Of a stretch of 34,712 nt of DNA, positions 8,381 through 23,090 are shown one piece after another; positions within the stretch are counted from its first letter, which is position 1; each line of letters opens with the position of its first letter. This DNA comes from Actinomycetes bacterium. Its GTDB lineage: Bacteria; Actinomycetota; Acidimicrobiia; Acidimicrobiales; Bog-793. The notes below the pieces were generated by a model, which ran no database searches, was not told the origin of the DNA, and saw nothing but the letters and a program-made list of their open reading frames with translations. The stretch covers positions 1-34,712 of the forward strand of contig JAJZZB010000020.1 in NCBI GenBank assembly GCA_021797795.1, written 5' to 3'. A program made the position numbers and the translations under genes.

Positions 8381-10395
8381 GGGGCCACCGCCTGGTCGAG
8401 GGGCGCCGGCGGGCGGCTGGCACCGGCGAGGCCGAGGGCCGCCCACCTCCCCTCGAGGACGGCCTCGTGGATCGTCCGGGGGGCGACGGCGTCGCCCGCC
8501 AGCCACAGCCGGTCGGGCTTGCGGCCGGCGCTCGCCAGGCAGGCCCGCCAGAGGGCGTCGTCGGCCAGGCGGTGGCCGGCGTCGACGAGGAGGGCGCCGG
8601 GGACCACCCGGCGCCTCCCGCTGAAGCGGTCCTCGATCGTGACGGCCTGCGCCGAGACGGAGCGGACGAGCGAGTGGATGGCGACCTCGACCCCGGCCCG
8701 GGCCAGGCGGACGTTCGCCGGCGCCAGGTCGCCGCTCCTCGCGAGCTGCTCGCCGGCGACGAAGTCGGGCGTGACGAGGGTGACGGCGCTCCCGAACCCG
8801 GCGAGGAGCTCGGCCACCCCGACGCCGACCGGGCCCCCGACCGGGTCGGAGACGACGGCGGCGGCGGGGACGGGCGCACCCGGCAGGCGCTCGGCCGCCA
8901 GCACCTCGGCGGCCGAGGTGACGGGCGCCGGCGCCACGGCCTCGTAGGTCGCCCTGCCCGGCCTCGACCCCGTGCAGAGGACGACCGGCCCCTCGTGGGC
9001 GTCGAGGCGCTCGAGCGTCGCCTCCTCGCCGTAGGCGAGCTCGACCCCGAGCAGGCGGCAGGACCGCTCGAGGAAGAGGACGAGGCCCCCGAGCCGCTCC
9101 CGCCCGGGGAGGCGGGCGGCGGCGGCGGCCGCCATCCCACCGGCGCTGTCGCCCCGCTCGAGCAGCGTCACGGCGAAGCCGGCGAGCGCCGCCACGCGGG
9201 CGCACTCGAGGCCGGCCGGCCCGGCGCCGACGACGAGCAGGTGGCGGCCCCTCCCGGGGAGGAGCCCGCCGAGCCCGTCCGGGTCGGGCTCGAGGTCCTC
9301 GTAGCCGCTGCGCGGCTCGCCGATGCAGCTCACGATCGGGTTGCGGACGTCGCGCACCTGGCAGCTCTGGTTGCACAGCACGCAAGGGCGGACGGCGTCG
9401 TCCTCGCCCGCCACGAGCTTGCCGGCGGCGGCTGCGTCGGCGATCTGGGCCCGGGTCATCTCGACGGCGTCGGCCTCGCCGGCGCCGACGATCTCCCTCG
9501 CGAGCTGCGGGTCGACGATCGAGCCCTGGGCGACGACGGCGACGCCGGCCGGGAGAGCGCGGCGCACGGCGGCGGCGAGGTGCCGGTTGAAGCCGGCGGG
9601 GACGTGGCTGTCCGGGCGGGTGGCGGCCGTGGCGAAGGCCGACCCCGTCACGACGGTGGCGTAGTCGAAGCCAGCCCGCTCCCCACCGGCGAGCCGGCCG
9701 AGGGCGGCGACCGCCTGGTCGGGGACGATGCCCGCCCACGGCGCCAGCTCGTCGCAGGAGATCCTGAGGCCGAGCACCCCGCCGGGCGCCTCCCGCCGGA
9801 CCTCCTCGAGCACCTCGGCGAGGAGGCGGAGACGGTCCTGCCCGTATCGGTCGCGGCGGTGGTTGGTGAGGCCGGAGGCGAACTGGCGAAGCAGGCTGTA
9901 CTGGCCGGCGTTCACCTCGACCCCGTCGCAGCCGGCCTCGAGCGCCAGGCGTGCAGCCGCGCCGAAGCCGGCGACGAGGTCGGCGAGGTCGGCCGCCTCC
10001 ATCTCCTTTGGCACCTCACGGCTCACGACGTCGGGCACCCGCGAGGGCCCCCACAGCGCCGACTGGTGGTACGCGCTCGAGCCCTGGCCACCGGCGTGGC
10101 CGAGGGCGGCGAGGACGAGAGCCCCCTCTTCGTGGCAGGCGACTGCCACCTCCGCCCAACCCTCGGCGCACTCGGCCGCCAGCGGCGCCCGCTCGTAGGG
10201 CCAGTCCGAGGGGTGGACCGAGGCCTCCTCGACGACGACCACGCCGGCGCCGCCGGCCGCCCGGGCCCGGTAGTAGGCGACGTGGCGCCGGGAGAGCGAC
10301 CGGCGGCGACCGAGGTTCGTCTCGTGGGGACCGAAGACGACCCGGTTGCGGGCCGTGGCGGGGCCGAGCCGGAGCGGGTCGGCGAGGGTGGTCAC
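8377..10395 (-). CDS. Mycofactocin-system FadH/OYE-family oxidoreductase (second of two)
   Basis: Paralogue of the adjacent gene, 672 residues, with the same layout: an FMN barrel (LGHAGGQGSS, CDGVEVNAG, TNHRRDRYG), a 4Fe-4S motif at Cys338, 341, 345 and 357, and a C-terminal domain starting LLVVGAGPAG (about 387). The FadH proton-donor Tyr aligns with Ser167. It shares an SHVP-G segment with its paralogue that could be part of a common substrate site. The two are clearly diverged and not a recent duplication. The GTG start overlaps the mftC stop. The pair may form a heteromer or act on different substrates; this cannot be told from sequence. Confidence 0.87.
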   Translation of the reverse strand: MTTLADPLRLGPATARNRVVFGPHETNLGRRRSLSRRHVAYYRARAAGGAGVVVVEEASVHPSDWPYERAPLAAECAEGWAEVAVACHEEGALVLAALGHAGGQGSSAYHQSALWGPSRVPDVVSREVPKEMEAADLADLVAGFGAAARLALEAGCDGVEVNAGQYSLLRQFASGLTNHRRDRYGQDRLRLLAEVLEEVRREAPGGVLGLRISCDELAPWAGIVPDQAVAALGRLAGGERAGFDYATVVTGSAFATAATRPDSHVPAGFNRHLAAAVRRALPAGVAVVAQGSIVDPQLAREIVGAGEADAVEMTRAQIADAAAAGKLVAGEDDAVRPCVLCNQSCQVRDVRNPIVSCIGEPRSGYEDLEPDPDGLGGLLPGRGRHLLVVGAGPAGLECARVAALAGFAVTLLERGDSAGGMAAAAAARLPGRERLGGLVLFLERSCRLLGVELAYGEEATLERLDAHEGPVVLCTGSRPGRATYEAVAPAPVTSAAEVLAAERLPGAPVPAAAVVSDPVGGPVGVGVAELLAGFGSAVTLVTPDFVAGEQLARSGDLAPANVRLARAGVEVAIHSLVRSVSAQAVTIEDRFSGRRRVVPGALLVDAGHRLADDALWRACLASAGRKPDRLWLAGDAVAPRTIHEAVLEGRWAALGLAGASRPPAPLDQAVAP

Positions 10396-11543
10396 CGACG
10401 GGTGGCGCCGAGGGCGACCGCCACCGGGGGGGAGCCGTCGGCGGCGGGCTTCGAGTGGCCTGCCGCCACCTCCGGCCGGGCGCCCAGCGGCACCGCCGAG
10501 AGGGCCGCCTCGCCGTGCCCGAGGACGCACTCGGGGTCCGGCCCGTCGAGGGGGAGGCCGGTGAAGAACTTCGCCGCCATGCAGCCGCCGTGGCAGGCGG
10601 CGTACGCCCCGCAGGCGTTGCAGGCGCCGGCAGCCTGCGGCTGGCGGAGGGAGCCGAACAGCCCCGACGTGCGCCACACCCCCGCGAAGCCACCCGGGGC
10701 CCGCACGCTCCCCGCCTTGAACTCGGGGTGCATGACGAAGGGGCAGGCGTAGACGTCGCCGACCGGGTCGACGAGGCAGACCACCCTCCCGGCGCCGCAC
10801 AGGTTGAGCCCCGGGAGCGGCTCGTCGCCGAGGGGAGCCAGGTGGAAGAAGGAGTCCCCGGTCAAGACGTCGGGGTGCTCGACGAGGAAGCGGTGGACCC
10901 CGGCCAGCTGGGCGGGAGAGGGACGCAGCTCGTCCCAGCTGCGCGCCCCGCGCCCGGACGGCCGCAGCCTCGTCAGGCGCAGCTCGGCCCCGTGGCGCCC
11001 GGCGAGCTCGAGGAGCTCGTCGAGCTCGCCGGCGTTGTGGCGGGTGACGACGACGCTCACCTTGAACTTCGAAAAGCCCGCCCCGGCGAGATTCTCCATC
11101 GCCCGGCGGGCCGCCGCGTAGCTCCCCGGGCCGCGGACCAAGTCGTTCGACTCCGGCCGGGCGCCGTCCAGGCTGATCTGGATGTCGAGGTAGTCCATGG
11201 CGGCGTACCGGCGGGCCCGCTCGGGTGAGAGGGTCGTCCCGTTGGTGGAGAACTTGACGCCGACGCCGTGGCCGATGGCGTGCTCGACGAGGTCGGTGAA
11301 GTCGGGCCGGAGGGTCGGCTCGCCCCCGCCGAGATTGACGTAGAAGACCCGCATCGCCGCCAGCTCGTCGAGGAAGCCGGTCGCCTCGGCCGTTGTCAGC
11401 TCCCGGGCGTCGCGCCGGCCCGAGCTCGACAGGCAGTGGATGCAGGCGAGGTTGCAGCCGTAGGTGAGCTCCCAGGTGAGGCAGATCGGTGCCTCCAGCC
11501 CGGCTGCCAGCTCGTCGGCGAGCCGCCCGGTCTCAGCGGGCAC
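10392..11543 (-). CDS. mftC: Mycofactocin radical SAM maturase MftC
   Basis: Radical SAM/SPASM enzyme of 383 residues that decarboxylates and cross-links the C-terminal Val-Tyr of MftA to begin cofactor synthesis. The radical SAM cluster motif is CNLACIHC (Cys30, 34, 37), followed by YVNLGGGEPTLRP. The C-terminal SPASM region has the auxiliary-cluster cysteines (CGAGRVVCLVDPVGDVYACPF, then CNACGAYAACHGGC and a late Cys in PECVLG). The GTG start lies 11 nt inside mftB. A C-terminal tail of about 40 residues rich in Ala, Pro and Gly follows the last cluster ligand. Confidence 0.97.
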   Translation of the reverse strand: MPAETGRLADELAAGLEAPICLTWELTYGCNLACIHCLSSSGRRDARELTTAEATGFLDELAAMRVFYVNLGGGEPTLRPDFTDLVEHAIGHGVGVKFSTNGTTLSPERARRYAAMDYLDIQISLDGARPESNDLVRGPGSYAAARRAMENLAGAGFSKFKVSVVVTRHNAGELDELLELAGRHGAELRLTRLRPSGRGARSWDELRPSPAQLAGVHRFLVEHPDVLTGDSFFHLAPLGDEPLPGLNLCGAGRVVCLVDPVGDVYACPFVMHPEFKAGSVRAPGGFAGVWRTSGLFGSLRQPQAAGACNACGAYAACHGGCMAAKFFTGLPLDGPDPECVLGHGEAALSAVPLGARPEVAAGHSKPAADGSPPVAVALGATRR

Positions 11544-11814
11544 GGATCACCTGGCTTTCGTGCAGGGCGGCCAGGGCGCGGGCGAACCTCGGCCGGAGCT
11601 CGGCGGCGATGCCACCCGCCTCCATGGCCGAGGTGGCAGAGCGGTGGGCGCCGAGGCGCCCGAGCAGCTCGACGAGCTCGCTCGAGCGGACGAAGCTGAG
11701 GCGGCGGTTGCCGTAGTGGTAGGCGAGCGCCCCGAACGGCTCGGGGCGGAGCGCCACCGCCGGGTCGAGCTCGTAGGGCTGGTCGGGGTCGAAGCTGGCC
11801 CCGGGACCGGTCAC
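11533..11814 (-). CDS. mftB: Mycofactocin peptide chaperone MftB
   Basis: RRE-type recognition protein of 93 residues that binds the MftA precursor and presents it to MftC. It begins with the family-like FDPDQPYELDPAVALRPEPFGALAYHYGNRRLSFV, followed by a helical C-terminal half. The GTG start at 11814, seven nt after the mftA stop, gives the normal family length; a longer open frame upstream reads only through mftA in another frame. Position between mftA and mftC and the 11-nt overlap with mftC support the call. Confidence 0.93.
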   Translation of the reverse strand: MTGPGASFDPDQPYELDPAVALRPEPFGALAYHYGNRRLSFVRSSELVELLGRLGAHRSATSAMEAGGIAAELRPRFARALAALHESQVIRAR

Positions 11815-11821
11815 CGCCGGC

Positions 11822-11983
11822 TCAGTAGACCCCGCACATGCCATCGATCGAGATCTCCTCGACGAGCAGCTCCTCTTCGACGAGTCCGCCGGCCACCGCC
11901 TGGTCGCGGTCCACCTCGCCGGGGGCCGCCGGGCCGGTGGTGCCGGCGCCGGTGACGGGATCGCAGACGACGACTTCTGGCAT
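11822..11983 (-). CDS. mftA: Mycofactocin precursor peptide MftA
   Basis: Ribosomal precursor of the redox cofactor mycofactocin, 53 residues. The C-terminal EELLVEEISIDGMCGVY is the hallmark of MftA; Val52 and Tyr53 are the residues modified by MftC and later released. The ATG at 11983 has a good ribosome site (CGGAGG, 8 nt upstream). The leader is longer than I recall for mycobacterial MftA (about 30 residues), with an acidic Gly/Pro/Ala-rich N-terminal half and an additional Cys7. The gene is first in the operon, followed by mftB. Confidence 0.97.
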   Translation of the reverse strand: MPEVVVCDPVTGAGTTGPAAPGEVDRDQAVAGGLVEEELLVEEISIDGMCGVY

Positions 11984-12006
11984 CGAGCGGACCTCCGGTG
12001 GATCGG

Positions 12007-12023
12007 GGCGGGCACGGCCCGCC
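12007..12023 (-). promoter_or_regulatory. Hairpin in the mftA 5' leader
   Basis: A perfect 7-bp inverted repeat (GGCGGGC / GCCCGCC, 3-nt loop) lies between the putative mftA promoter and its ribosome site. No T-run follows. It could partly terminate readthrough from pilO, protect the mRNA, or bind a regulator; this is inference. Confidence 0.45.
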
Positions 12024-12027
12024 GCAT

Positions 12028-12075: not shown

Positions 12076-12696
12076 TCAGCCCGCAGGGGCGGCCGTCACG
12101 GTCCCGGCGAAGTAGGCCGTCCCCGTGATGGTCATGGTGAAGGGCACCCCGTCCCGGTTCAACACGTCGTAGGCCGGGTTCGGAGCCGCCGTCGGCGTCG
12201 GATTGATCGACTGGATCGTGATCAGCCTCGGCAGCGAGTACAGGTCGCTCAGGAACTTGACGACGTTGGCGTGCGGCCCCGTCACCGTGAGCGAGACCGG
12301 GATCGTGCTGAGGGTGCTCGGGGCGACCGCCCCGGTCGTCGTGTTGGCCGTCACGCTCGTGATGTCGACGTGGTCGGAGTTCGACAGCTTGCCGAGCTGG
12401 TAGACGAGCTGGCCCTGCTCGGGTTGGACCGGGACCTGCGAGCCGAAGAAGGTGAGGAACGTCTGGTACTTCGTGACGAATCCCGCCTCGGCGATGAGCT
12501 GGGCCAGCTGGGCGTGCAGCGAGGAGATCTCGGTCACCTGCTGCTGCTTCTGGGCGTTCACCGAGGCCAGCTTGCTGGTCTCCGGCGCCCACCAGGCGAA
12601 GTAGAAGGCGATGATCAGCACGATGACCGCCCCGATGGCGCCGAGCACCCGGGGACGCTTGAGGACGTCGGTGTTGACAGAGTTGAGCTTGCTCAC
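12076..12696 (-). CDS. pilO: Type IV pilus assembly protein PilO
   Basis: Inner-membrane alignment protein of 206 residues. One membrane segment at about residues 17-36, then a coiled-coil-like stretch (about 40-70, ending LHAQLAQLIAE), then a ferredoxin-like C-terminal domain (SLTVTGPHANVVKFLSDLYSLPRLITIQSI) typical of PilO. It would pair with the PilN part of the upstream fusion protein. The GTG start overlaps the stop of that gene (GTGA). It is the last gene of the pilus operon; mftA begins about 90 nt further on. Confidence 0.88.
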   Translation of the reverse strand: MSKLNSVNTDVLKRPRVLGAIGAVIVLIIAFYFAWWAPETSKLASVNAQKQQQVTEISSLHAQLAQLIAEAGFVTKYQTFLTFFGSQVPVQPEQGQLVYQLGKLSNSDHVDITSVTANTTTGAVAPSTLSTIPVSLTVTGPHANVVKFLSDLYSLPRLITIQSINPTPTAAPNPAYDVLNRDGVPFTMTITGTAYFAGTVTAAPAG

Positions 12697-14420
12697 TTGG
12701 GCTGCACCTCGAACTTGTTGAGGCGGCTCGACTGGATCGTCCCGAGGACGTCCAGCTGGGCCGACCAGGTGACGGTGTTCCCGGAGGGGTGCGAAAGGCC
12801 CGTGTTGCTCACGACCCTGAACTGCGACGAGGTCTCGAAGGTGTTGATCCAGGTCCGGAAGTACGGGAAGCCGAGGTTCGTCGTCATGTTGACGTTCACC
12901 GTCGCGATGACGACCGTCTCCCGCTGGGCCTGGGTCTGCGAGGCCGGCGGCGGCGTGGTGGTCGCCGGCGCCCCCGTGCTCGTCACCGGTGCCACCGGCG
13001 GCGAGTACGAGCCCGAGAACGAGGTCACCGAGCCGCCCTTCGGCGTGTCCTTCGCCAGGTCGGAGAGCACGGCCGGCCAGTTGACCTCGTTGCCGAGGAT
13101 GGGGGCGACCGAGCTCTGGTCGCTCTTGATGCTGGCGTAGGCCCTGGCCGCCTTGTTCTTCTGGGCGATCTGAAGGTGCAGGGAGGTGATCTCGACCTTC
13201 TGGCTGGCGACGCCGTTCTCGGCGTTGTGGACGTCGAGGTAGCGGAGCACCCCGAGGCCGACGAGGCAGACGACGACGACCACGGCAGCCGCCAGCACGC
13301 CCCGCTCGACGCGCTGCTGGCGCCGGGCGGCGGTGATCTCGGGCGGGAGGAGGTCGAGCGACTTCACCCCTGCCGCGTCCGGAAGGGCGAGGCCGAGGAC
13401 GGTCGAGACGAGCGGGTCCCGCCGCAGCAGGTCGTCCGGGCTCAGGTTGAGCGCCGTGGCGTCGACCCGGGCGAGGGCGCTGCCGGGGACGACCTCGGCC
13501 CTCGTCTGCTGCTGGAGGCGCTCGGCGAAGCCGGCGAGGCGGGCGCCGCCGCCGGTGAGCTTCACCCGGCGGACCTCGTGGCGGCTCGGCAGGGTGGAGT
13601 AGTAGTCGACCGAGCTGCGGATCTCCGTCACGAGCGACGAGGCCGCCTCGCCGGCGGCCGTGGCGGCCGCCCGGTACTGCGGGCCGGTCTTGTCGAGGTT
13701 GCGCTTGGTGCTCTCGGCGTCGTCGATCGGCAGGTCGAGGGCGCCGGCGATGGCGGCCGTGACCGTGTCGCCGCCTTCGGCGATCGTGCGGACGAAGTGC
13801 GGCACGCCGTCCTCGTGGACCACGATGGTGGTGAGGCCGCTGCCGATCGAGACGATGGCCTCCGGGCCGTTCGAGGGGATGGCCGGGTCGTAGAGCGCAC
13901 GCACGAGCGCCGTCGAGGACAGGTCGACCGACATCGGCGTCAGCCCCGCAGCCGTCACCGCCGCCAGCAGCGGCTCGACGAGGTCCCGGTGGGCTGCCGC
14001 CAGCAGGACCCGGCGCGCCGGGTTGCCGTCGGAGGAGACGACGTCCTCGAGCGGCCGTGCCGACAGCAGCGTCTTGTCGACCGGGAAGGGGATGACGTCG
14101 AGCGCCTGCAGCCGGACGGCCGAGTCGAGCTCGCCGTCGGGCACCCGGGGCATGTCGAGCTCACGGGTGATGGCCCGCAGGCCCGCCACACCGAGATGGA
14201 CCTCCTTGGTCTTGAATCCCCCCTCCTTCACGCAGCGCTCGATGGCGCTCGCGACGGCGGTGACGTCGACGACCGTGCCGTCGACGACCGACCTCGGAGG
14301 GAGACGGACCTGGCCGAGGTTGAGCAGCTTTGCCTTGCCACCGCTCACCTGGACCTCGGCGATCCGCACTGCGCTGTTGCTGATCTCGAGGCCGAGACGC
14401 CTCGCTGACTTCGCCCCCAT
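12693..14420 (-). CDS. pilM-pilN: Fused PilM-PilN type IV pilus assembly protein
   Basis: Protein of 575 residues that joins two normally separate subunits. Residues 1 to about 348 are PilM, an actin-like ATP-binding protein (GLEISNSAVRIAEV, IVSIGSGLTTIVV, VKLTGGGARLAGF). LDLLP at 355-359 matches the short INLLP peptide by which PilN docks on PilM; a membrane segment follows (about 374-392), then a PilN-like extracytoplasmic domain with a Thr/Pro/Ala-rich loop. The ATG at 14420 is preferred over the TTG one codon earlier because AGGAG lies at the proper distance. There is a 58-nt gap from pilC. It would anchor the PilM ring to the membrane in a fixed 1:1 ratio with PilN. Confidence 0.92.
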   Translation of the reverse strand: MGAKSARRLGLEISNSAVRIAEVQVSGGKAKLLNLGQVRLPPRSVVDGTVVDVTAVASAIERCVKEGGFKTKEVHLGVAGLRAITRELDMPRVPDGELDSAVRLQALDVIPFPVDKTLLSARPLEDVVSSDGNPARRVLLAAAHRDLVEPLLAAVTAAGLTPMSVDLSSTALVRALYDPAIPSNGPEAIVSIGSGLTTIVVHEDGVPHFVRTIAEGGDTVTAAIAGALDLPIDDAESTKRNLDKTGPQYRAAATAAGEAASSLVTEIRSSVDYYSTLPSRHEVRRVKLTGGGARLAGFAERLQQQTRAEVVPGSALARVDATALNLSPDDLLRRDPLVSTVLGLALPDAAGVKSLDLLPPEITAARRQQRVERGVLAAAVVVVVCLVGLGVLRYLDVHNAENGVASQKVEITSLHLQIAQKNKAARAYASIKSDQSSVAPILGNEVNWPAVLSDLAKDTPKGGSVTSFSGSYSPPVAPVTSTGAPATTTPPPASQTQAQRETVVIATVNVNMTTNLGFPYFRTWINTFETSSQFRVVSNTGLSHPSGNTVTWSAQLDVLGTIQSSRLNKFEVQPK

Positions 14421-14478
14421 CAACGACTCCTGTCTGCTGCGTACGACGTCCGACTGGTGCTTCGCAACGGGTGGGGCG

Positions 14479-15723
14479 TCACGCGGAGGATCCGTTCTTC
14501 TGGATGATCGAGTAGATGTTGAACATCGGGAGGTACATCGAGACGACGATGGCTCCGATGGCCGCGCCCATCGTGACGATGAGGAGCGGCTCGAGGATGG
14601 AGGTGAGGCTCTCGACGGTGGCGTTGACCTCGTTGTCGTAGAAGGTGGCGACCTTGTCGAGCATGGCGTCGAGGGCGCCGGACTCCTCCCCGGTCTCGAT
14701 CATCTGGGTGACCATGATGGGCATGACCGGGCTCTGGCCGAGCGAGGAGGAGAGCGAGCGGCCCTCGCGCACGCCGTCCTGGGCGGCCCGCACGGCGTCG
14801 GCCACGAGCTGGTTGCCGCTGTTGTCGGCCACGATGTCGAGCGACTCGATGATCGGCACACCGGCAGTGAGCAGCGAGGCGAGGGTGGCGGTGAAGCGGG
14901 CGAGCGCCACCTTGTGGGCGAGCGGCCCGAACACCGGCGGCTTCAGCTTGAAGGCGTCCCACTTCCGCCGCCCGTTCGGCGTCGAGATCCACTTGCGGAA
15001 GCCGATGATGATCGCCGCCACCACCGCGATGACCACGAGCAGCCAGATGCTGGCGATGACGTTGGAGATGGTGATCACGATCTGGGTCGGGACCGGCAGG
15101 GGGGCGTGCAGGGAGGCAAAGAGCTTCTTGAAGATCGGGACGACGAAGATCATGAGCGCCGTCACGATGACGATGACGAGGCAGACGACGATCGCCGGGT
15201 AGCTCATCGCCGACTTGACCTTGCTGCGCAGCTCGACCTGCTTCTCGAGTGTCGTCGAGAGCTTGAGGAGCACCATGTCGAGCTGGCCGCCGGCCTCTCC
15301 GGCCCGCACCATCGAGACGTACAGCGGCGGGAAGACCTTCGGCAGCTTCTCGATGGCCTGCGAGAGGGACGAACCCTGCTCGACGTCCTGGCGGACCGCG
15401 ACGAGCGCCTCCCGGAGGGGCTTCGACTCGAGCTGGTCGGCGAGGACGCCGAGCGCCCGGACGAGGGTGAGCCCGGCCGAGACCATCGTGGCGAGCTGGC
15501 GGCTCATGAGCGCCACGTCCTTCAGCTTCACCCGGTCGGTGACGCCTGGGATGTGGATCTCCTTCTTCAGGCCGACCTTGCTGGCCGCCTTGATCTCGAC
15601 CGGGGCGAAGCCCATGTCGCGCAGCTTGGTCGACACGAGGGCGAGCGAGTCCGCCTCGAGCGAGCCGGAGATGAGCCGACCGTCGCGGTCGCGCACCTTG
15701 TAGTCGAAGGTGGTGGTTGGCAT
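14479..15723 (-). CDS. pilC: Type IV pilus inner-membrane platform protein PilC
   Basis: Polytopic platform protein of 414 residues on which the PilB and PilT motors act. It has two repeated T2SSF domains, about 70-190 (SRQLATMVSAGLTLVRAL) and about 275-400 (FTATLASLLTAGVPIIESL), each with a GE-G-L motif (RAGEAGGQLD; ETGEESGALD), and three membrane segments. The N-terminal FDYKVRDRDGRLISGSLEADS is typical of the family. ATG start, 8 nt after the pilT stop. Confidence 0.96.
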   Translation of the reverse strand: MPTTTFDYKVRDRDGRLISGSLEADSLALVSTKLRDMGFAPVEIKAASKVGLKKEIHIPGVTDRVKLKDVALMSRQLATMVSAGLTLVRALGVLADQLESKPLREALVAVRQDVEQGSSLSQAIEKLPKVFPPLYVSMVRAGEAGGQLDMVLLKLSTTLEKQVELRSKVKSAMSYPAIVVCLVIVIVTALMIFVVPIFKKLFASLHAPLPVPTQIVITISNVIASIWLLVVIAVVAAIIIGFRKWISTPNGRRKWDAFKLKPPVFGPLAHKVALARFTATLASLLTAGVPIIESLDIVADNSGNQLVADAVRAAQDGVREGRSLSSSLGQSPVMPIMVTQMIETGEESGALDAMLDKVATFYDNEVNATVESLTSILEPLLIVTMGAAIGAIVVSMYLPMFNIYSIIQKNGSSA

Positions 15724-15731
15724 CGGCCGGA

Positions 15732-17570
15732 TCAGCCTTTCAGGTGGTCGCGGAGCTCGGCCGGGTCGTGGCAGCGGTCGAAGGCGACGGCCTCGGTGAT
15801 CCGGCCGTCCTTCACCGCGCGGGCGAGGCCTTGGTCCATGGTCTGCATCCCGAGAGATCCGCCCGTCTGCATGAGCGAGTAGATCTGGTGGGTCTTGGCG
15901 GAACGGACGAGGTTCCTGATGGCGGGGGTGCAGATCATCACCTCTGCCACCGGGACCCGCCCGAGGCCGGTGGCGCTGATGATCAGCTGCTGGGTGACGA
16001 CCGCCTCGAGGGAGCCGGCGAGCTGGATCCTCACCTGGTCCTGCTGGGCGGTCGGGAAGACGTCGATGATGCGGTCGACGGTCTGGGGCGCATCCTGGGT
16101 GTGCAGGGTGGCGAAGACGAGGTGGCCGGTCTCGGCGGCCGTGAGGGCGGTGGCGATCGTCTCGGTGTCGCGCATCTCCCCGACGAGGATGACGTCGGGG
16201 TCCTGGCGCAGCACGTGGCGGAGCGCCTCGGCGAACGAGGTGGTGTCGGCGCCCACCTCGCGCTGGTTGATGATCGCCCGCTGGTGACTGTGGAGGAACT
16301 CGATCGGGTCCTCGATCGTCATGATGTGGAGCGGCTTGGACCGGTTGATGATGCTGATGAGCGACGCCAGCGTCGTCGACTTGCCCGAGCCGGTCGGGCC
16401 GGTGACGAGGACGAGGCCCCGGCGCAGCTCGGCGAAGCTCGAGACGACCTCGGGGAGCCCGAGTGAGTCGAAGGCCGGGATCTCGTGCGGGATCGACCGG
16501 AGCACGGCGCCGATGGTCCCCCGCTGCTGGAAGACGTTCACGCGAAAGCGCCCGACCCCGACGATCATGTGGGAGGTGTCGAGCTCCCGCTCGGCCTCGA
16601 AGCGCTCCCGCAGGGTCTGGGTGAGGATGCGGTAGAGCATCTCCCTGATCTGCTCGTTGTCGAGCCGGACCACGTTCTCGATCGGCCGGAGCGAGCCGTC
16701 GATGCGGATCATCGGCGGTAGCTGGGTCGTGAGGTGGAGGTCGGAGGCACCGTTCTCGACGGCGTAGGTGAGCAGCTCGTCGAGGTCGAGGCCGCCGGTC
16801 ATCCCCGAGGGCTGGAAGGACCCCGGCACGTGCCCGGCGAAGTGCTCCTCGAGCTCGTCGAGTGCCATCATCCTGCCCGTGACGGGTGCCGCTGCCGCCG
16901 CCATCTGGGCCGTCGCCGGAGGCGGAGGAGGCGGAGGAGGCGGAGCCACGACGGGCGAGTCGAAGGCCGACGAGTGTCCGTTGCCGGCGATGTCGTCGCT
17001 GAGGCTGGACTGGACCGAGGCGGCGCCGACAGGGACCTCGGCCGACATCTGCCCGAGGTCGGTCCCCTGGGTCGCCGAGGCGGTGGCGCCATCGGCCGCG
17101 CCCGAGGCGAGCCGCGGGTAGACGGCTGCCATGATGCGATCGATGCCGGCGGGATCGGCCAGGACGCAGCCGGTGATCTCCCGCTCGAGGAACTCCGACA
17201 GCTGGCGGAGCTCCGTCGACGAGATGGGCTCGGCGCAGGCGAGCGTGAGCCGGTCGTCCTCGAGCCGGTAGCCGATGGCGCCGATCTCCCGGGCGAGGAG
17301 CTCGGGGACGAGCTTGAAGGCCTCGCCCATCGGGCGGTCGGCGAAGATGTCGACGCTCTCGAGGCCCGAGAGCTTGGCGAGCTCGGCGAGTGCCACGTGC
17401 GGCTCGATCTCGTGGTGCTGGACGAGCACGGCCGCCACCGGGCGACCGGACTCCGCCGCCTCGGAGAGGGCGGAGCTCCCCGCCTCGCTCGAGACGACCC
17501 CCTTGGCGGCGAGAGCCGCGACGAGCCGCCGCGACCACTCAGATGCCTGGCGTGTTCCACCGATGCTCAT
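15732..17570 (-). CDS. pilT: PilT-type retraction ATPase with an added N-terminal domain
   Basis: Hexameric motor ATPase of 612 residues; usual PilT is about 350. Residues from about 262 on are PilT: Walker A GPTGSGKST (391-399), Asp box TIEDPIE, Walker B DPDVILVGEMRD, His box GHLVFATLHT, and AIRNLVRS, the PilT retraction motif. Before it are a domain like the N-terminal domain of PilB/GspE (about 40-150, LAELAKLSGL...) and a low-complexity linker with nine consecutive prolines (210-218). The ATG start overlaps the pilB stop (ATGA), so the extension and both motors are coupled. The N-terminal domain could bind a regulator or nucleotide; this is inference. Confidence 0.93.
   Translation of the reverse strand: MSIGGTRQASEWSRRLVAALAAKGVVSSEAGSSALSEAAESGRPVAAVLVQHHEIEPHVALAELAKLSGLESVDIFADRPMGEAFKLVPELLAREIGAIGYRLEDDRLTLACAEPISSTELRQLSEFLEREITGCVLADPAGIDRIMAAVYPRLASGAADGATASATQGTDLGQMSAEVPVGAASVQSSLSDDIAGNGHSSAFDSPVVAPPPPPPPPPATAQMAAAAAPVTGRMMALDELEEHFAGHVPGSFQPSGMTGGLDLDELLTYAVENGASDLHLTTQLPPMIRIDGSLRPIENVVRLDNEQIREMLYRILTQTLRERFEAERELDTSHMIVGVGRFRVNVFQQRGTIGAVLRSIPHEIPAFDSLGLPEVVSSFAELRRGLVLVTGPTGSGKSTTLASLISIINRSKPLHIMTIEDPIEFLHSHQRAIINQREVGADTTSFAEALRHVLRQDPDVILVGEMRDTETIATALTAAETGHLVFATLHTQDAPQTVDRIIDVFPTAQQDQVRIQLAGSLEAVVTQQLIISATGLGRVPVAEVMICTPAIRNLVRSAKTHQIYSLMQTGGSLGMQTMDQGLARAVKDGRITEAVAFDRCHDPAELRDHLKG
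16918..16944. repeat. Three 9-bp tandem repeats encoding the poly-Pro linker
   Basis: Three perfect copies of GGAGGCGGA on the plus strand lie inside pilT and encode most of its poly-proline run. Any change in copy number keeps the reading frame, so it would alter linker length and not switch the gene off. Confidence 0.85.
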
Positions 17571-19960
17571 GCGACCACCCTCAGCACTTCCTCGAGGCTC
17601 GTGAGACCGAGCGCTGCCTTGCGCAGGCCGTCGTGGCGGAGGGGGATCATCCCCTGCTCGACACCCAGCCGGTTGATGTCGGCGACCGAGGCTCCGGCGA
17701 TGACGGAGCGCTCGATCTCCTCGGTGATGAGCAGGAGCTCGTGCAGCGCGATCCGTCCCCGGTACCCGGTCCGGCTGCAGGCCTGGCAGCCGACCGCCCG
17801 GCGAAAGCGCGGAGCTCCTTGCGGAGGCAGGTCTTCCTCGGTCCATCCGAAGGTGGCCAGCTCCTCCTCGGTGGGCTCGTACTCCTCGTTGCAGTTCTCG
17901 CAGAGCTGCCGGGCGAGCCGCTGGGCGACCACGCAGTCGAGCGAGGAGCCGACAAGGAAGGGCTCGACACCCATCTCGACGAGACGCATCGGCGTGCCGG
18001 CGGCGTCGTTGGTGTGCAGGCTTGACAGGACGAGGTGACCGGTGAGGGCCGCCTCGATGGCGATGACCGCAGTCTCCCGGTCGCGCACCTCGCCGACGAG
18101 GATGATGTCGGGGTCCGAGCGCAGGATCGAGCGCAGCGTGCTGGCAAAGGTGAGCCCCGCCTTCGGGTTCACCTGGACCTGGTTCACCCCGGGCAGCTGG
18201 TACTCGACCGGGTCCTCGACCGTGATGAGGTTGCGCTCGGGGTTGTTCAGCGCGTTCAAGGTGGCATACAGGGTGGTCGACTTGCCCGACCCGGTCGGGC
18301 CCGTGACGAGGATGGTCCCGTAGGGCTTGCGGAAGGCGGCCTCGTAGCGCTTCTTCACCGTCGGGAGGAAGCCGAGGTCAGACAGGTCGAGCATGGCGTT
18401 CGACTTGTCGAGCACCCGCATGACGACCTTCTCGCCATGGACGGTGGGAAGCGTCGCCACCCGGAGGTCGACCTGGCGGTGGCCTGCCGACAGCGAGATC
18501 CGGCCGTCCTGGGGGATCCGGTGCTCGGCGATGTCGAGGCTCGCCATGACCTTGAGCCGCGTCGTGACCCCGCCGTGGATCGCCTTCGGCGAGCGGGTGA
18601 TGTCGTGCATCACGCCGTCGATCCGGAACCGGATCCGCAGGTCGTCGGCGCTCGGCTCGATGTGGACGTCGCTCGCCCTCTCCTGGAGCGCCTGGCGGAG
18701 GATCAGGTTGACGTACTTGATGATCGGGGCGTCCTCGACGACGGCGTGCAGGTCGGTGAGCCCGATGCCGCCCTGCTCGGGCGTCGACCGGCTGACCGCC
18801 GAACGCGCCGCCTCGGCCGTCTCCTCGTCCCTGCGGTACATCCTCGAGATGTACTCGGCCACCTGGCGCGGGCTCGAGACGACCGTCTTGAAGTCCCGCC
18901 CGAGCAGCGTCCGCAGGTCGTCGAGGGCGAAGACGTCGGACGGGTTGGCGAGCGCCACGATCGGCGCCTCTCCCCGAAAGCCGATGGGCAGCACCTGGTG
19001 GCGACGGGCCATCGCCTCGGGCAGGATCGCCACGGCCGTCGGGTCGAAGGTCCAGTCGTTCAGGTCGACGAAGTCCATGCCGACCTCGGCCGCCATCGCC
19101 CGGATGAGGTCCTCCTCCGAGACGAGGCCGAGCTCGCCGAGGATGTCGGCGAGCGGGCGGCCGGTCGCCGCCTGCTCGCGCAGCGCCGCCTCCATCTCCT
19201 CGGGCGTCACCTGGCCGGAGGACACGAGGACGTCGGCGAGCGCAGGCGCCTTGGCGGGCACCTTGTCCGGCTCGTCCTCGCCACCGCCCGGCAGGACGGC
19301 TTCGATGGCGGCGGCCAGCTCGAGGTCGGCCCGGCTGAGGATGGGCTCGGGCGCCGTGTGCGCCGGCGCCTCGACCGGCTCCCCCTCTGAGACCACCACC
19401 GGCTCGGGCTCGGCCGCCTCGGGCTCGGCCGCCTCGGCCTGCTCGTCGGCGGGCGCCTCCCCCGGCGGAGCGGCCTCGGCTGCCGCCTCCTCGGCGACGG
19501 CCGCCGGTTCCTCTGCGGCAGGACCCCCGGGCGCCTCGTCGTGCGACGGAGCACTGGCCTCGGGCGCCGACTCGACGGCCGGTGGCGCCGCCGGTGTCAC
19601 CGCCCGCGGGCTCACGGGGCCGCCACTCCCGGCGTACATGCGTTGGATGTAGGCGTCGATCTGCGAGGCGCAGGCGACGACGGCGTGGATGTCCCGCCCG
19701 ATGACCGTCTTCAGGTCGTCCATGGCGAGGACGTTGTCGGGCGTGGCGACTGCGACGACCGGCGTGCCGTACTTCCACCCCACCGCCAAGGCGTGCTGGC
19801 GACGGGCGAGCTGCTCGGGCAGCAGAGAGGCCGCCGCCGCGTTGAGCGGGTAGCGGTCGAGGTCGACGTACTCGAGCCCCACCTCCCGGGCGAGCGCGCG
19901 AGCCTCGTCGATCTCGGCTTTGGAGGGTGCGACGCGCCGGCGTGTCTCAGTGGCGCTCAT
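17567..19960 (-). CDS. pilB: Type IV pilus extension ATPase PilB
   Basis: Extension motor of 797 residues, longer than usual (about 560). The C-terminal ATPase has Walker A GPTGSGKST, Asp box VEDPVEY, Walker B DPDIILVGEVRD, His box GHLVLSSLHTND and a zinc tetracysteine pair (CENC, CQAC). There are two copies of the N-terminal GspE/MshE-type domain: one at about 15-110 and another at about 235-375, joined by a long Ala/Glu/Pro-rich linker (about 115-215). The second begins LADVLVSSGQVTPEEMEAAL, resembling domains that bind cyclic-di-GMP in MshE. ATG start, first gene of the pilus operon. Confidence 0.95.
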   Translation of the reverse strand: MSATETRRRVAPSKAEIDEARALAREVGLEYVDLDRYPLNAAAASLLPEQLARRQHALAVGWKYGTPVVAVATPDNVLAMDDLKTVIGRDIHAVVACASQIDAYIQRMYAGSGGPVSPRAVTPAAPPAVESAPEASAPSHDEAPGGPAAEEPAAVAEEAAAEAAPPGEAPADEQAEAAEPEAAEPEPVVVSEGEPVEAPAHTAPEPILSRADLELAAAIEAVLPGGGEDEPDKVPAKAPALADVLVSSGQVTPEEMEAALREQAATGRPLADILGELGLVSEEDLIRAMAAEVGMDFVDLNDWTFDPTAVAILPEAMARRHQVLPIGFRGEAPIVALANPSDVFALDDLRTLLGRDFKTVVSSPRQVAEYISRMYRRDEETAEAARSAVSRSTPEQGGIGLTDLHAVVEDAPIIKYVNLILRQALQERASDVHIEPSADDLRIRFRIDGVMHDITRSPKAIHGGVTTRLKVMASLDIAEHRIPQDGRISLSAGHRQVDLRVATLPTVHGEKVVMRVLDKSNAMLDLSDLGFLPTVKKRYEAAFRKPYGTILVTGPTGSGKSTTLYATLNALNNPERNLITVEDPVEYQLPGVNQVQVNPKAGLTFASTLRSILRSDPDIILVGEVRDRETAVIAIEAALTGHLVLSSLHTNDAAGTPMRLVEMGVEPFLVGSSLDCVVAQRLARQLCENCNEEYEPTEEELATFGWTEEDLPPQGAPRFRRAVGCQACSRTGYRGRIALHELLLITEEIERSVIAGASVADINRLGVEQGMIPLRHDGLRKAALGLTSLEEVLRVVA

Positions 19961-20248: not shown

Positions 20249-21037
20249 ATGGGCACCGAACAGCTGAGCGCACTCGCCGCCGTCCCCGCCGGCCTCATCG
20301 GTCTCGTGGCCGGCTCGTTCGCCGGCGTGGTCGTCGACCGGGTCCCCGCAGGCGGCTCGGTGATCCGGCCCCCTTCCCACTGTGACGCCTGTGGAACGCC
20401 GCTCCGGGCCTCGGACAACATCCCGGTCGTCTCGTATCTCGCCCTGCGGGGCCGCTGTCACCACTGCAGGGCACGCATCCCCCTCCGCGTGCTCATGACC
20501 GAGCTCGTCACCGCCGGGGTGTTCGTCCTCCTCGCGTTCCGCCTGCCGACACTATGGGCGCTTCCCGCCTACTGCGTCCTCGCCGCAGGCCTCGTCGCCC
20601 TGTCGGCCATCGACCTCGACGTGCGGCGCCTGCCGACGCCGGTCGTCTACTGGACGGGCGCGATCGGCGCCGCCGGCCTCGTCCTCGCGAGCGCCGGGAG
20701 CGGGCGGTGGACGGCCCTCGCCTCGGCAGCGATCGGCGGGGCGGCGTGCTTCGCCGTCTTCTTCGCCATCTTCTTCGCCGTCCCGAAGGGGATGGGCTTC
20801 GGGGACGTCCGCCTGGCGACGCTGTGCGGCGTCTTCCTCGGCTGGCTCGGCCTCCGCCTCGTCCCGCTCGGCATCCTGCTCGGCTTCGTCGTGGCCGGGC
20901 TGCCGGCGATCGCCCTCGTCGTGCTCGGGAGGGCGACCCGTAAGAGCCAGCTCCCCTTCGGGCCCTTCCTGGCGGCCGGGACCCTCGTCGGGGTCTGTTT
21001 CGGGCCGGCCATCCTGCACGCCCTCCCGCTGTTCTGA
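20249..21037 (+). CDS. pilD: Prepilin leader peptidase/methyltransferase PilD
   Basis: Membrane aspartyl protease of 262 residues that cuts and methylates type IV prepilins. Cys45, 48, 70 and 73 form the cytosolic zinc-type CXXC...CXXC insert. The catalytic aspartates are in SAIDLD (Asp122) and GMGFGD (Asp186). Several membrane segments follow. It lies divergently from the pilus operon, sharing its control region. No pilin substrate gene is in the window, so prepilins must be encoded elsewhere. Confidence 0.96.
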   Translation: MGTEQLSALAAVPAGLIGLVAGSFAGVVVDRVPAGGSVIRPPSHCDACGTPLRASDNIPVVSYLALRGRCHHCRARIPLRVLMTELVTAGVFVLLAFRLPTLWALPAYCVLAAGLVALSAIDLDVRRLPTPVVYWTGAIGAAGLVLASAGSGRWTALASAAIGGAACFAVFFAIFFAVPKGMGFGDVRLATLCGVFLGWLGLRLVPLGILLGFVVAGLPAIALVVLGRATRKSQLPFGPFLAAGTLVGVCFGPAILHALPLF

Positions 21038-21412: not shown

Positions 21413-22510
21413 TCAGCGGGCGCCGGAGGGGACGAGACCGCGCTGTTGCAGCGCGACCCGCAGGTCGTGCGGGTTCGAGGCGGCCTGGGTGGCCGACCGC
21501 AGGTCGATCATGCCCTGCTCGAGCAGGCTGACGAGCGCCTGGTCGAAGGTCTGCATGCCGTAGTACTCGCCTTCGCGGATGATCTGGCTGATGTCGCTCC
21601 CGCGGACGGGGTCGATGATCGACTGCTGGATCCGTCCGTTGACCATCATGATCTCGAGAGCGGGGACCCGCCCTGTACCGTCGATCGTCGGGACGAGCCG
21701 CTGGCAGATGGTCCCCTTCAGCGCGCCGGCGAGGCTGATGCGGGCCTGCTTTTGCTGCTCTGGCGGGAAGAAGTCGATGATCCGGTTGATCGTCTCGACG
21801 GCGTCGACGGTGTGGAGCGTCGAGAAGACGAGGTGGCCGGTCTCGGCCGCAGACAGGGCCGTCGCCACCGTCTCGGTGTCGCGCATCTCGCCGACGAGGA
21901 TGACGTCGGGGTCCTCTCGAAGGGCGGCACGAAGCGCCGTCAGGAAGCTCCTCGTGTCGAAGCCGACCTCGCGCTGGCTGATGGCGGCGACCTCGTCGCG
22001 GTGCAGCACCTCGATCGGGTCCTCGATCGTCACGATGTTGCACTCGCGTCTGCGGTTGATGTGGTCGATCATGGCGGCGAGCGTCGTCGTCTTGCCCGAG
22101 CCCGTCGGTCCGGTGACGAGGACGAGGCCGCGCTGCTCGTCGGCGAGGCGCCGGATCGTCTCGGGCAGGTTCAGGTCGCTGAAGTCCCGGGCCGAGGAGC
22201 GCACGAGGCGGAAGACCATGCCGACCGAGCCGCGCTGGCGGTAGACGTTCACCCGGAAGCGACCGAGGCCCATGATGGCGTAGGCGAAGTCCGCCTCCCA
22301 GTTCTCCTCGAAGCTGTCCCAGAGACGCTCGTGCATGATCTCCCTGGCGATGGCCTCGAGGTCGGCAGGCTGGGGACCGGTCTCGTCCTCCAAGCGCAGA
22401 AGGTCGCCGTTCACCCGGATTCGCGGAGGCGACCCGACCTTCAGGTGAAGGTCCGAGCCGTCGGCGTCCGCCAGGCGGCGGAGGAGTCGATCCAGGTCCC
22501 CGCGATTCAT
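21413..22510 (-). CDS. pilT2: Second PilT-type retraction ATPase
   Basis: Motor ATPase of 365 residues, the standard PilT length, without the extra N-terminal domain of the operon copy. Visible are SDLHLKVGSPPRIRVNGDL, Walker A GPTGSGKTT, Asp box TIEDPIE, Walker B DPDVILVGEMRD and His box GHLVFSTLHT. The AIRNLIRE-type retraction motif is replaced by NGRIQQSIID, so it may be an accessory or PilU-like motor. It is transcribed alone. The ATG at 22510 has no real ribosome site and lies very close to a putative promoter, suggesting a leaderless mRNA. Confidence 0.93.
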   Translation of the reverse strand: MNRGDLDRLLRRLADADGSDLHLKVGSPPRIRVNGDLLRLEDETGPQPADLEAIAREIMHERLWDSFEENWEADFAYAIMGLGRFRVNVYRQRGSVGMVFRLVRSSARDFSDLNLPETIRRLADEQRGLVLVTGPTGSGKTTTLAAMIDHINRRRECNIVTIEDPIEVLHRDEVAAISQREVGFDTRSFLTALRAALREDPDVILVGEMRDTETVATALSAAETGHLVFSTLHTVDAVETINRIIDFFPPEQQKQARISLAGALKGTICQRLVPTIDGTGRVPALEIMMVNGRIQQSIIDPVRGSDISQIIREGEYYGMQTFDQALVSLLEQGMIDLRSATQAASNPHDLRVALQQRGLVPSGAR

Positions 22511-22519
22511 ATTGCCTGA

Positions 22520-22548
22520 ATCGTCGCACAATTCGGTCGCGGTGGCAA
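22520..22548 (-). promoter_or_regulatory. Putative promoter of the second pilT
   Basis: TTGCCA and GACGAT on the minus strand are separated by 17 nt, a good actinobacterial -35/-10 pair. The -10 ends about 9 nt before the ATG at 22510, so transcription would start at or next to the start codon. Confidence 0.4.
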
Positions 22549-22658
22549 TCTGTGGGCGCCCGACCACTCTCGGCGTGCACTCCTCGCGCCGAGCAGGTAG
22601 CCTGGTGACGAGCCTCGTCGGGGTACGGCCCCGGCCCGGAGGCGACGAGGGGGTAGCA

Positions 22659-23090
22659 ATGGGGGCAGTCGGAAAGCTCGTGTACCGGAGGGCGCCGTCG
22701 CCCCCGCCCGGAGCGGACCTGGTGAACGCCGAGAAGCTCGAGCTCGTCGGCGTGCAGCTCGTGGGCGAGGTCGGGGAGACCGGCTTCGAGGTCCCGCGGC
22801 TCAGCCTGCGCTTTGACGGGAAGGGGATCCTCGTGCGCAATGCGGAGGGCGCCGTGGTATCCCACATCGCCTGGGTGAACCTGCGGCGCCTGCGCGTCGC
22901 CGCCCGCCGCAAGAAGCGGGCGGCCGAGCGCACCGAGCTCGAGATCGAGAGCGACCGCACGCGCCACCGCTTCGTCGTCCCGAACGTCGACCCGAGCGTG
23001 CTGTGCATCTCGCTCAGAGCCGTCTCGGCCCGCTACGCCCGCACGGGCCTCGTGGAGGACGGGACGAAGAGCCTGCTGCGGATCCGCTGA
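22659..23090 (+). CDS. Uncharacterised basic protein
   Basis: Protein of 143 residues; I do not recognise the family. After a proline-rich start (SPPPGADL) it has alternating hydrophobic segments suggesting a beta-rich fold, a very basic patch (RRLRVAARRKKRAAER) and a second beta-like stretch. The ATG at 22659 is chosen because GAGGGGG precedes it at a proper distance; the open frame extends further upstream but without a better start. It is divergent from pilT2, with a 148-nt shared control region. A PH- or GRAM-like domain is possible but not supported by any motif. Confidence 0.65.
   Translation: MGAVGKLVYRRAPSPPPGADLVNAEKLELVGVQLVGEVGETGFEVPRLSLRFDGKGILVRNAEGAVVSHIAWVNLRRLRVAARRKKRAAERTELEIESDRTRHRFVVPNVDPSVLCISLRAVSARYARTGLVEDGTKSLLRIR

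Follow-up and report, generated by a model that had tools for sequence, protein, structure and literature searches.

The stretch of DNA analysed here (the window; 34,712 nucleotides of contig JAJZZB010000020.1, assembly GCA_021797795.1) carries pilMN, a gene that encodes PilM and a PilN-type protein as one continuous chain. The product very probably serves a monoderm type IVa pilus (T4aP) as a single-chain stator subunit, with its LDLLP peptide docked in cis and with PilM and PilN held at a fixed 1:1 ratio. What is new is how the fusion is distributed among Acidimicrobiia, that it has appeared repeatedly in Actinomycetota and that the docking motif is conserved in the fused proteins. The surprise is limited because PilM plus PilN as one chain is already known from Clostridioides difficile and from GspL.

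Gene structure, domains and locus

The features of the pilus locus are listed in Table 1. The pilMN gene starts with an ATG at 14420 on the minus strand, with AGGAG standing a few bases 5′ of it, and ends with a TGA at 12695-12693; a TTG at 14423, upstream of the ATG, is a possible alternative start. The frame contains no internal stops and runs from PilM through a short linker and LDLLP into a membrane helix and a PilN-type domain, which bears out the first-pass annotation, where PilM had been described as continuing into a docking peptide, a membrane segment and an outer domain. GC3 stays even along the gene (0.95 for the PilM part, 0.93 for the junction, 0.98 for the PilN part and 0.96 overall), which indicates a single coding frame throughout. 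Both proteins are present in one chain without a separate pilN, which is what defines a PilM-PilN fusion, and no second PilN-like match was found in the genome at E <= 0.001.

Table 1. Positions in the window of pilMN, its parts and the surrounding pilus genes
Feature	Residues	Nucleotides	Strand	Basis or remark
pilO		12076..12696	minus	PF04350 E 2.6e-8; GTG start overlaps the pilMN stop
pilMN fusion gene		12693..14420	minus	575 aa and TGA stop; one open frame
PilM actin-like domain	10-346	13383..14393	minus	PF11104, TIGR01175; matches together span 8-346
PilN-type docking motif LDLLP	355-359	13344..13358	minus	conserved in relatives; aligns with INLLP of 5EOU
Predicted transmembrane segment	about 374-392	13245..13301	minus	hydropathy; within long helix 360-443 (model secondary structure)
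PilN-type outer domain	463-559	12744..13034	minus	predicted models, Foldseek, VIA
pilC platform protein		14479..15726, start approximate	minus	T2SSF E 8.3e-67
pilT-family ATPase with MshEN domain		15732..17606, start approximate	minus	TIGR01420 E 1.9e-145; MshEN E 3.5e-8
pilB extension ATPase		17567..19960	minus	TIGR02538 E 4.4e-197; score 656 bits (cut-off 676)
Prepilin peptidase, PilD-like		20249..21037	plus	PF06750 E 1.3e-29; PF01478 E 6.3e-12

Profile searches place the N-terminal part in the PilM family, with 166 bits for TIGR01175 (cut-off 133; E 9.8e-49) and 144 bits for PF11104 (cut-off 27; E 4.9e-42). Structural comparison of the predicted model gives the PilM fold as well, with a VIA Z of 38.3 to 2YCH (rmsd 2.7 over 333 residues) and of 37.9 to 5EOU. 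The C-terminal half yielded no sequence match to the Pfam PilN family PF05137, and even at E <= 0.1 this profile matched only three of the 46 relatives, with a lowest E-value of 0.0025; the half is called PilN-type because the naming rests on homology to unfused PilN and not on PF05137. This homology to the PilN encoded beside pilM in relatives was found by hhalign, in which the family profile of the fused C-terminal halves (A3, 46 fused rows) matched that of unfused actinobacterial PilN (A4, 23 rows) with a probability of 99.8 and an E-value of 6e-30, the aligned region reaching from the motif to the C-terminus. The C-terminal half modelled alone reached a pLDDT of 87.0, and its best Foldseek match was the outer domain of Thermus thermophilus PilN, 4BHQ (E 1.9e-3). 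VIA-align scored the outer domain with Z 9.1 to PulL (5HL8), 9.0 to PilO (2RJZ), 8.7 to XcpY, 8.0 to EpsL and 6.8 to PilN (4BHQ); the top ranking of GspL outer domains and PilO for this predicted domain is what the fold family leads one to expect. The half combines the N-terminal docking motif, the single membrane helix and the ferredoxin-like outer domain by which PilN is recognised, the helix and the fold being predicted.

Upstream of pilMN and on the same strand lie pilC, the gene for a pilT-family ATPase and pilB. An additional T2SSE-family ATPase, distinct from PilB and PilT, is encoded next to this locus (21413-23008, minus strand; PF00437 E 5e-47), and the mycofactocin genes mftB and mftC follow pilO at 10392-12027 (minus strand), a neighbourhood seen, among the loci read, only in the nearest relatives (L135-L137). 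The source genome comprises 3.8 Mb in 324 contigs. No match to the secretin family PF00263 was found in this genome, which is 94 percent complete, and its two N-methyl pilin matches are both located on a different contig. Among fused loci of relatives, a PilO match is present in 122 of the 139 with 700 bases downstream; the pilC-pilMN order is not general, as PilC precedes only 32 of the 101 fused loci with 1500 bases before the frame.

Docking motif, linker and predicted cis docking

The full-length AlphaFold model has a pLDDT of 90.1, and residues 341-360, which adopt no regular structure past 345, have a mean pLDDT of 95-96. The docking motif reaches a pLDDT of 95 in the presence of PilM, and residues 352-361 average 68 when PilM is omitted. 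The best Foldseek match of the full model is 5EOU (E 6.1e-31), a chimera of Pseudomonas aeruginosa PilM and PilN(1-12) reported in McCallum 2016. In 5EOU, the PilN docking peptide follows PilM at nearly the same spacing as in the natural junction, and an alignment of the two proteins runs through INLLP and LDLLP. The structural alignment likewise extends through the motif, to residue 360 of the model and residue 366 of the chain; unlike the window protein, 5EOU is a laboratory construct that contains neither membrane helix nor outer domain. The model superposes more closely on PilN-bound PilM (2.7 Å for 2YCH and 3.0 Å for 5EOU) than on the free form of P. aeruginosa PilM (4.5 Å), a gap that was measured against the structures of one bacterium and may partly be a PilN-independent domain opening. 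From the model, we infer that LDLLP turns back and occupies the cleft of the PilM to which it is joined.

The motif is conserved in the fused proteins. Across an alignment of complete fused proteins, 145 after removal of redundancy, position 356 holds Asn, Asp or Ser in 137, Leu-357 is present in 140 and Pro-359 in 130, and by information content these positions rank seventh, eighth and fifth, respectively, within the PilN half. Invariance of the motif Pro in two further alignments was disregarded, as A1 was hand-picked (44/79) and the rows of A3 were selected by a pattern that requires this Pro. Conservation despite the tether suggests that docking still matters. Docking is not universal among fused proteins, because the Pro is gone in 15 of 145, some of which read RINLLG or RINLTT, and the motif is unrecognised in 7 of 79. 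In two loci, L276 (G727) and L205, the pilMN frame breaks directly after RINLLG, possibly through an assembly frameshift. The linker measures 5-8 residues in 64 of 72 motif-bearing fused proteins. At 63 unfused loci, pilN starts from -4 to +3 nt relative to the pilM stop in 57, and the motif starts two to seven residues into PilN; the fused linker is therefore of the length expected from direct joining of pilM and pilN. Because unfused pilN mostly abuts the pilM stop and end-to-end joining yields the correct linker, the fusion would be easily reached.

The short linker bears on three other readings of the same frame. PilM and PilN are thought to form rings (PMC6916266 and PMC8389850), in which the LDLLP of one chain might occupy the PilM cleft of its neighbour, and such domain-swapped docking would likewise preserve the motif. 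Docking in trans is nevertheless unlikely, since in the monomer model the motif is already positioned with confidence in the absence of a neighbour, at the site taken by the same-chain peptide in 5EOU, and the shortness of the linker also counts against it. Cleavage of the chain into PilM and PilN in the cell, which would make the fusion purely genetic, appears improbable; nothing that favours it was found, and a linker that is short in most relatives and predicted confidently leaves little space for a cut. A free PilN made in addition from an internal start just before LDLLP, giving two products from one frame, is slightly less probable again. The window does contain a GTG at the place expected for the start of an unfused pilN, three codons ahead of LDLLP, but no SD-like core precedes it, and a start at this place is absent from most fused genes. 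Candidate starts make up 49 of the 864 codons in the 12-codon stretches before the motif of 72 fused genes, or 5.7 percent, compared with 6.7 percent over the whole genes. With neither an SD-like core nor an enrichment of start codons, an internal start for a separate PilN was rejected. Docking in cis within an intact chain is retained as the preferred reading in what follows.

Proposed stator function and relation to known systems

We propose that pilMN encodes a cytoplasmic-membrane stator subunit as a single chain. Each LDLLP would dock, as modelled, in the cleft of its own PilM, and PilM would thereby be poised in its PilN-bound form, at a permanent 1:1 ratio with PilN. By analogy with established T4aP biology, the outer domain would pair with PilO and the PilM part would serve as the socket for PilB and PilT, so that ATPase motion could reach the membrane platform. 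According to published work, PilM assembles into a ring and binds the N-terminal end of PilN (PMC6916266), the T. thermophilus ATPase is stimulated by PilM and PilN together and not by PilM alone (PMC6325625), and PilM is a stator socket contested by the extension and retraction ATPases (PMC11656802). The fusion would abolish the exchange of subunits, and docking and undocking of the peptide would stay possible. It had been argued in the first-pass annotation that the covalent link prevents PilM from leaving PilN and thus limits models of dynamic exchange; this is correct insofar as a whole PilM cannot swap its PilN, but it does not extend to the peptide, which may still leave the groove.

If binding between PilM and PilN were a mere tether, the motif should decay after the covalent link is made, yet it persists in most fused proteins. 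It is conceivable, although we are doubtful, that Acidimicrobiia have a cis latch, in which the peptide, maintained by selection although the partners cannot come apart, takes PilM from a docked to an undocked state and back within one chain, and that the T4aP stator needs this switch and not exchange. If so, the repeated fusion would be a natural experiment that separates conformational-switch from subunit-exchange models. With the motif conserved in an order-wide fusion, one can ask whether the binding of PilM to PilN acts as a switch or only tethers the two, and the secretin-less locus would be a simple setting for studying the role of the stator in assembly.

The C. difficile protein, reported as a PilM-PilN fusion (PMC6916266), resembles the window protein in combining PilM and PilN in one protein of a monoderm T4aP; it belongs to a different phylum and is likened here by that description and not by sequence. 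According to a proposal in the same source, the PilN of monoderms has a different motif, located at the C-terminus. EpsL/PulL (GspL) of the T2SS has been termed a natural PilM-PilN fusion (PMC6325625 and PMC10191384). The periplasmic domains of PulL, XcpY and EpsL share the fold of the window outer domain (VIA Z 8.0-9.1). Unlike GspL, the window protein is matched by neither the T2SSL nor the GspL_C profile of Pfam at E <= 0.1, and unlike the GspL system, its locus has PilT and its genome has no secretin match. To our knowledge, GspL has no INLLP docking peptide. GspL cytoplasmic domains were absent among the best 50 structural matches listed, which is no evidence of a difference. The Amuc_1101 family NF045709 gave a match that crosses the junction (residues 54-460, E 1.2e-34), but the protein is not a member of this family because its score of 120 bits falls short of the cut-off of 650. 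Where PilM and PilN are separate, as in other Actinomycetota, they are homologous to the two halves and are encoded by two genes, with pilN mostly beginning at or beside the pilM stop. No published report of a PilM-PilN fusion in Acidimicrobiia was found in a literature search for which subscription papers were largely outside reach.

Distribution of the fusion in Actinomycetota

In the order sample, 92 of 298 genomes matched PilM, 88 of them above the cut-off. Among these 88, the genes are fused in 83 and cut by a contig end in 5, and none has solely a separate PilM. The loci of 90 of the 92 genomes were read, leaving out G382 and G411, both below the cut-off; the two below-cut-off matches that were read contain no PilM by our own profile. 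One genome, G321, has an additional separate PilM that groups with sequences of other orders. The fusion is present in Actinobacteria bacterium IMCC26256, whose genome is complete, and in a cultured isolate, Aciditerrimonas ferrireducens MV1, and the named relatives are Acidimicrobiaceae or Acidimicrobiales records. An assembly or frameshift error that merged two genes might be suspected in a draft as fragmented as that of the window genome, but it has next to no probability given an order-wide fusion that includes a complete genome and an isolate, and given a junction whose GC3 is even with both halves. The frameshift that the first-pass annotation had named as its refuting case is ruled out by the many independent assemblies.

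In the phylum sample, PilM was found in 193 of 296 genomes, of which the three in the window's own order are all fused. Outside the order, 5 of 190 PilM-bearing genomes have the fusion, namely G016, from another order of the same class, and G218, G154, G100 (family f48) and G111 (family f51) from outside the class; the other genomes have listed frames too short for both proteins, are cut by a contig end or were read as separate, among them four with long frames. The survey of actinobacteria that had been suggested for the fusion thus finds a trait of the order and not a general trait of Actinomycetota. In the class sample, PilM was present in 125 of 395 genomes, and the 40 loci read include fused and unfused states in other orders. 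A quick, unrooted PilM-domain tree of 109 chosen rows, made without bootstrap, places all 56 Acidimicrobiia fused rows on one side of a branch with an SH-aLRT of 99. The fused label needs four changes on this tree, which we place as one for the Acidimicrobiia group and three in f48/f51; as the tree is unrooted, gain and loss of the fusion are not distinguishable. Long PilM frames in families f34 and f25 were rejected as fusions, since PilM itself is long there, and PilM frames of 490-740 aa without a PilN part occur in several other actinobacterial families (L065, L067, L291). Two records titled Candidatus Dormiibacterota and Bifidobacterium breve (L189 and L199) have the Acidimicrobiia-type fused gene, and their titles or bins are probably wrong.

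One position within PilM varies with this clade. Residue 191 of the pilMN product, which we take to be the Asp/Asn position of the PilM phosphate-2 loop, is mostly Ser in fused Acidimicrobiia, with Asp or Asn kept in 4 of 146 proteins compared with 19 of 24 in unfused Acidimicrobiia. The loss was rejected as a consequence of the fusion because fusions outside the Acidimicrobiia clade do not share it; it is an unexplained correlate that marks the Acidimicrobiia fused clade. Judging from this change, the handling of nucleotide by PilM may be different in the clade. Residue 19 was matched by alignment to Lys-26 of T. thermophilus, a residue named in PMC6325625; the Lys-to-Arg change at this position was rejected as a fusion-linked trait, as Arg is equally common in unfused Acidimicrobiia.
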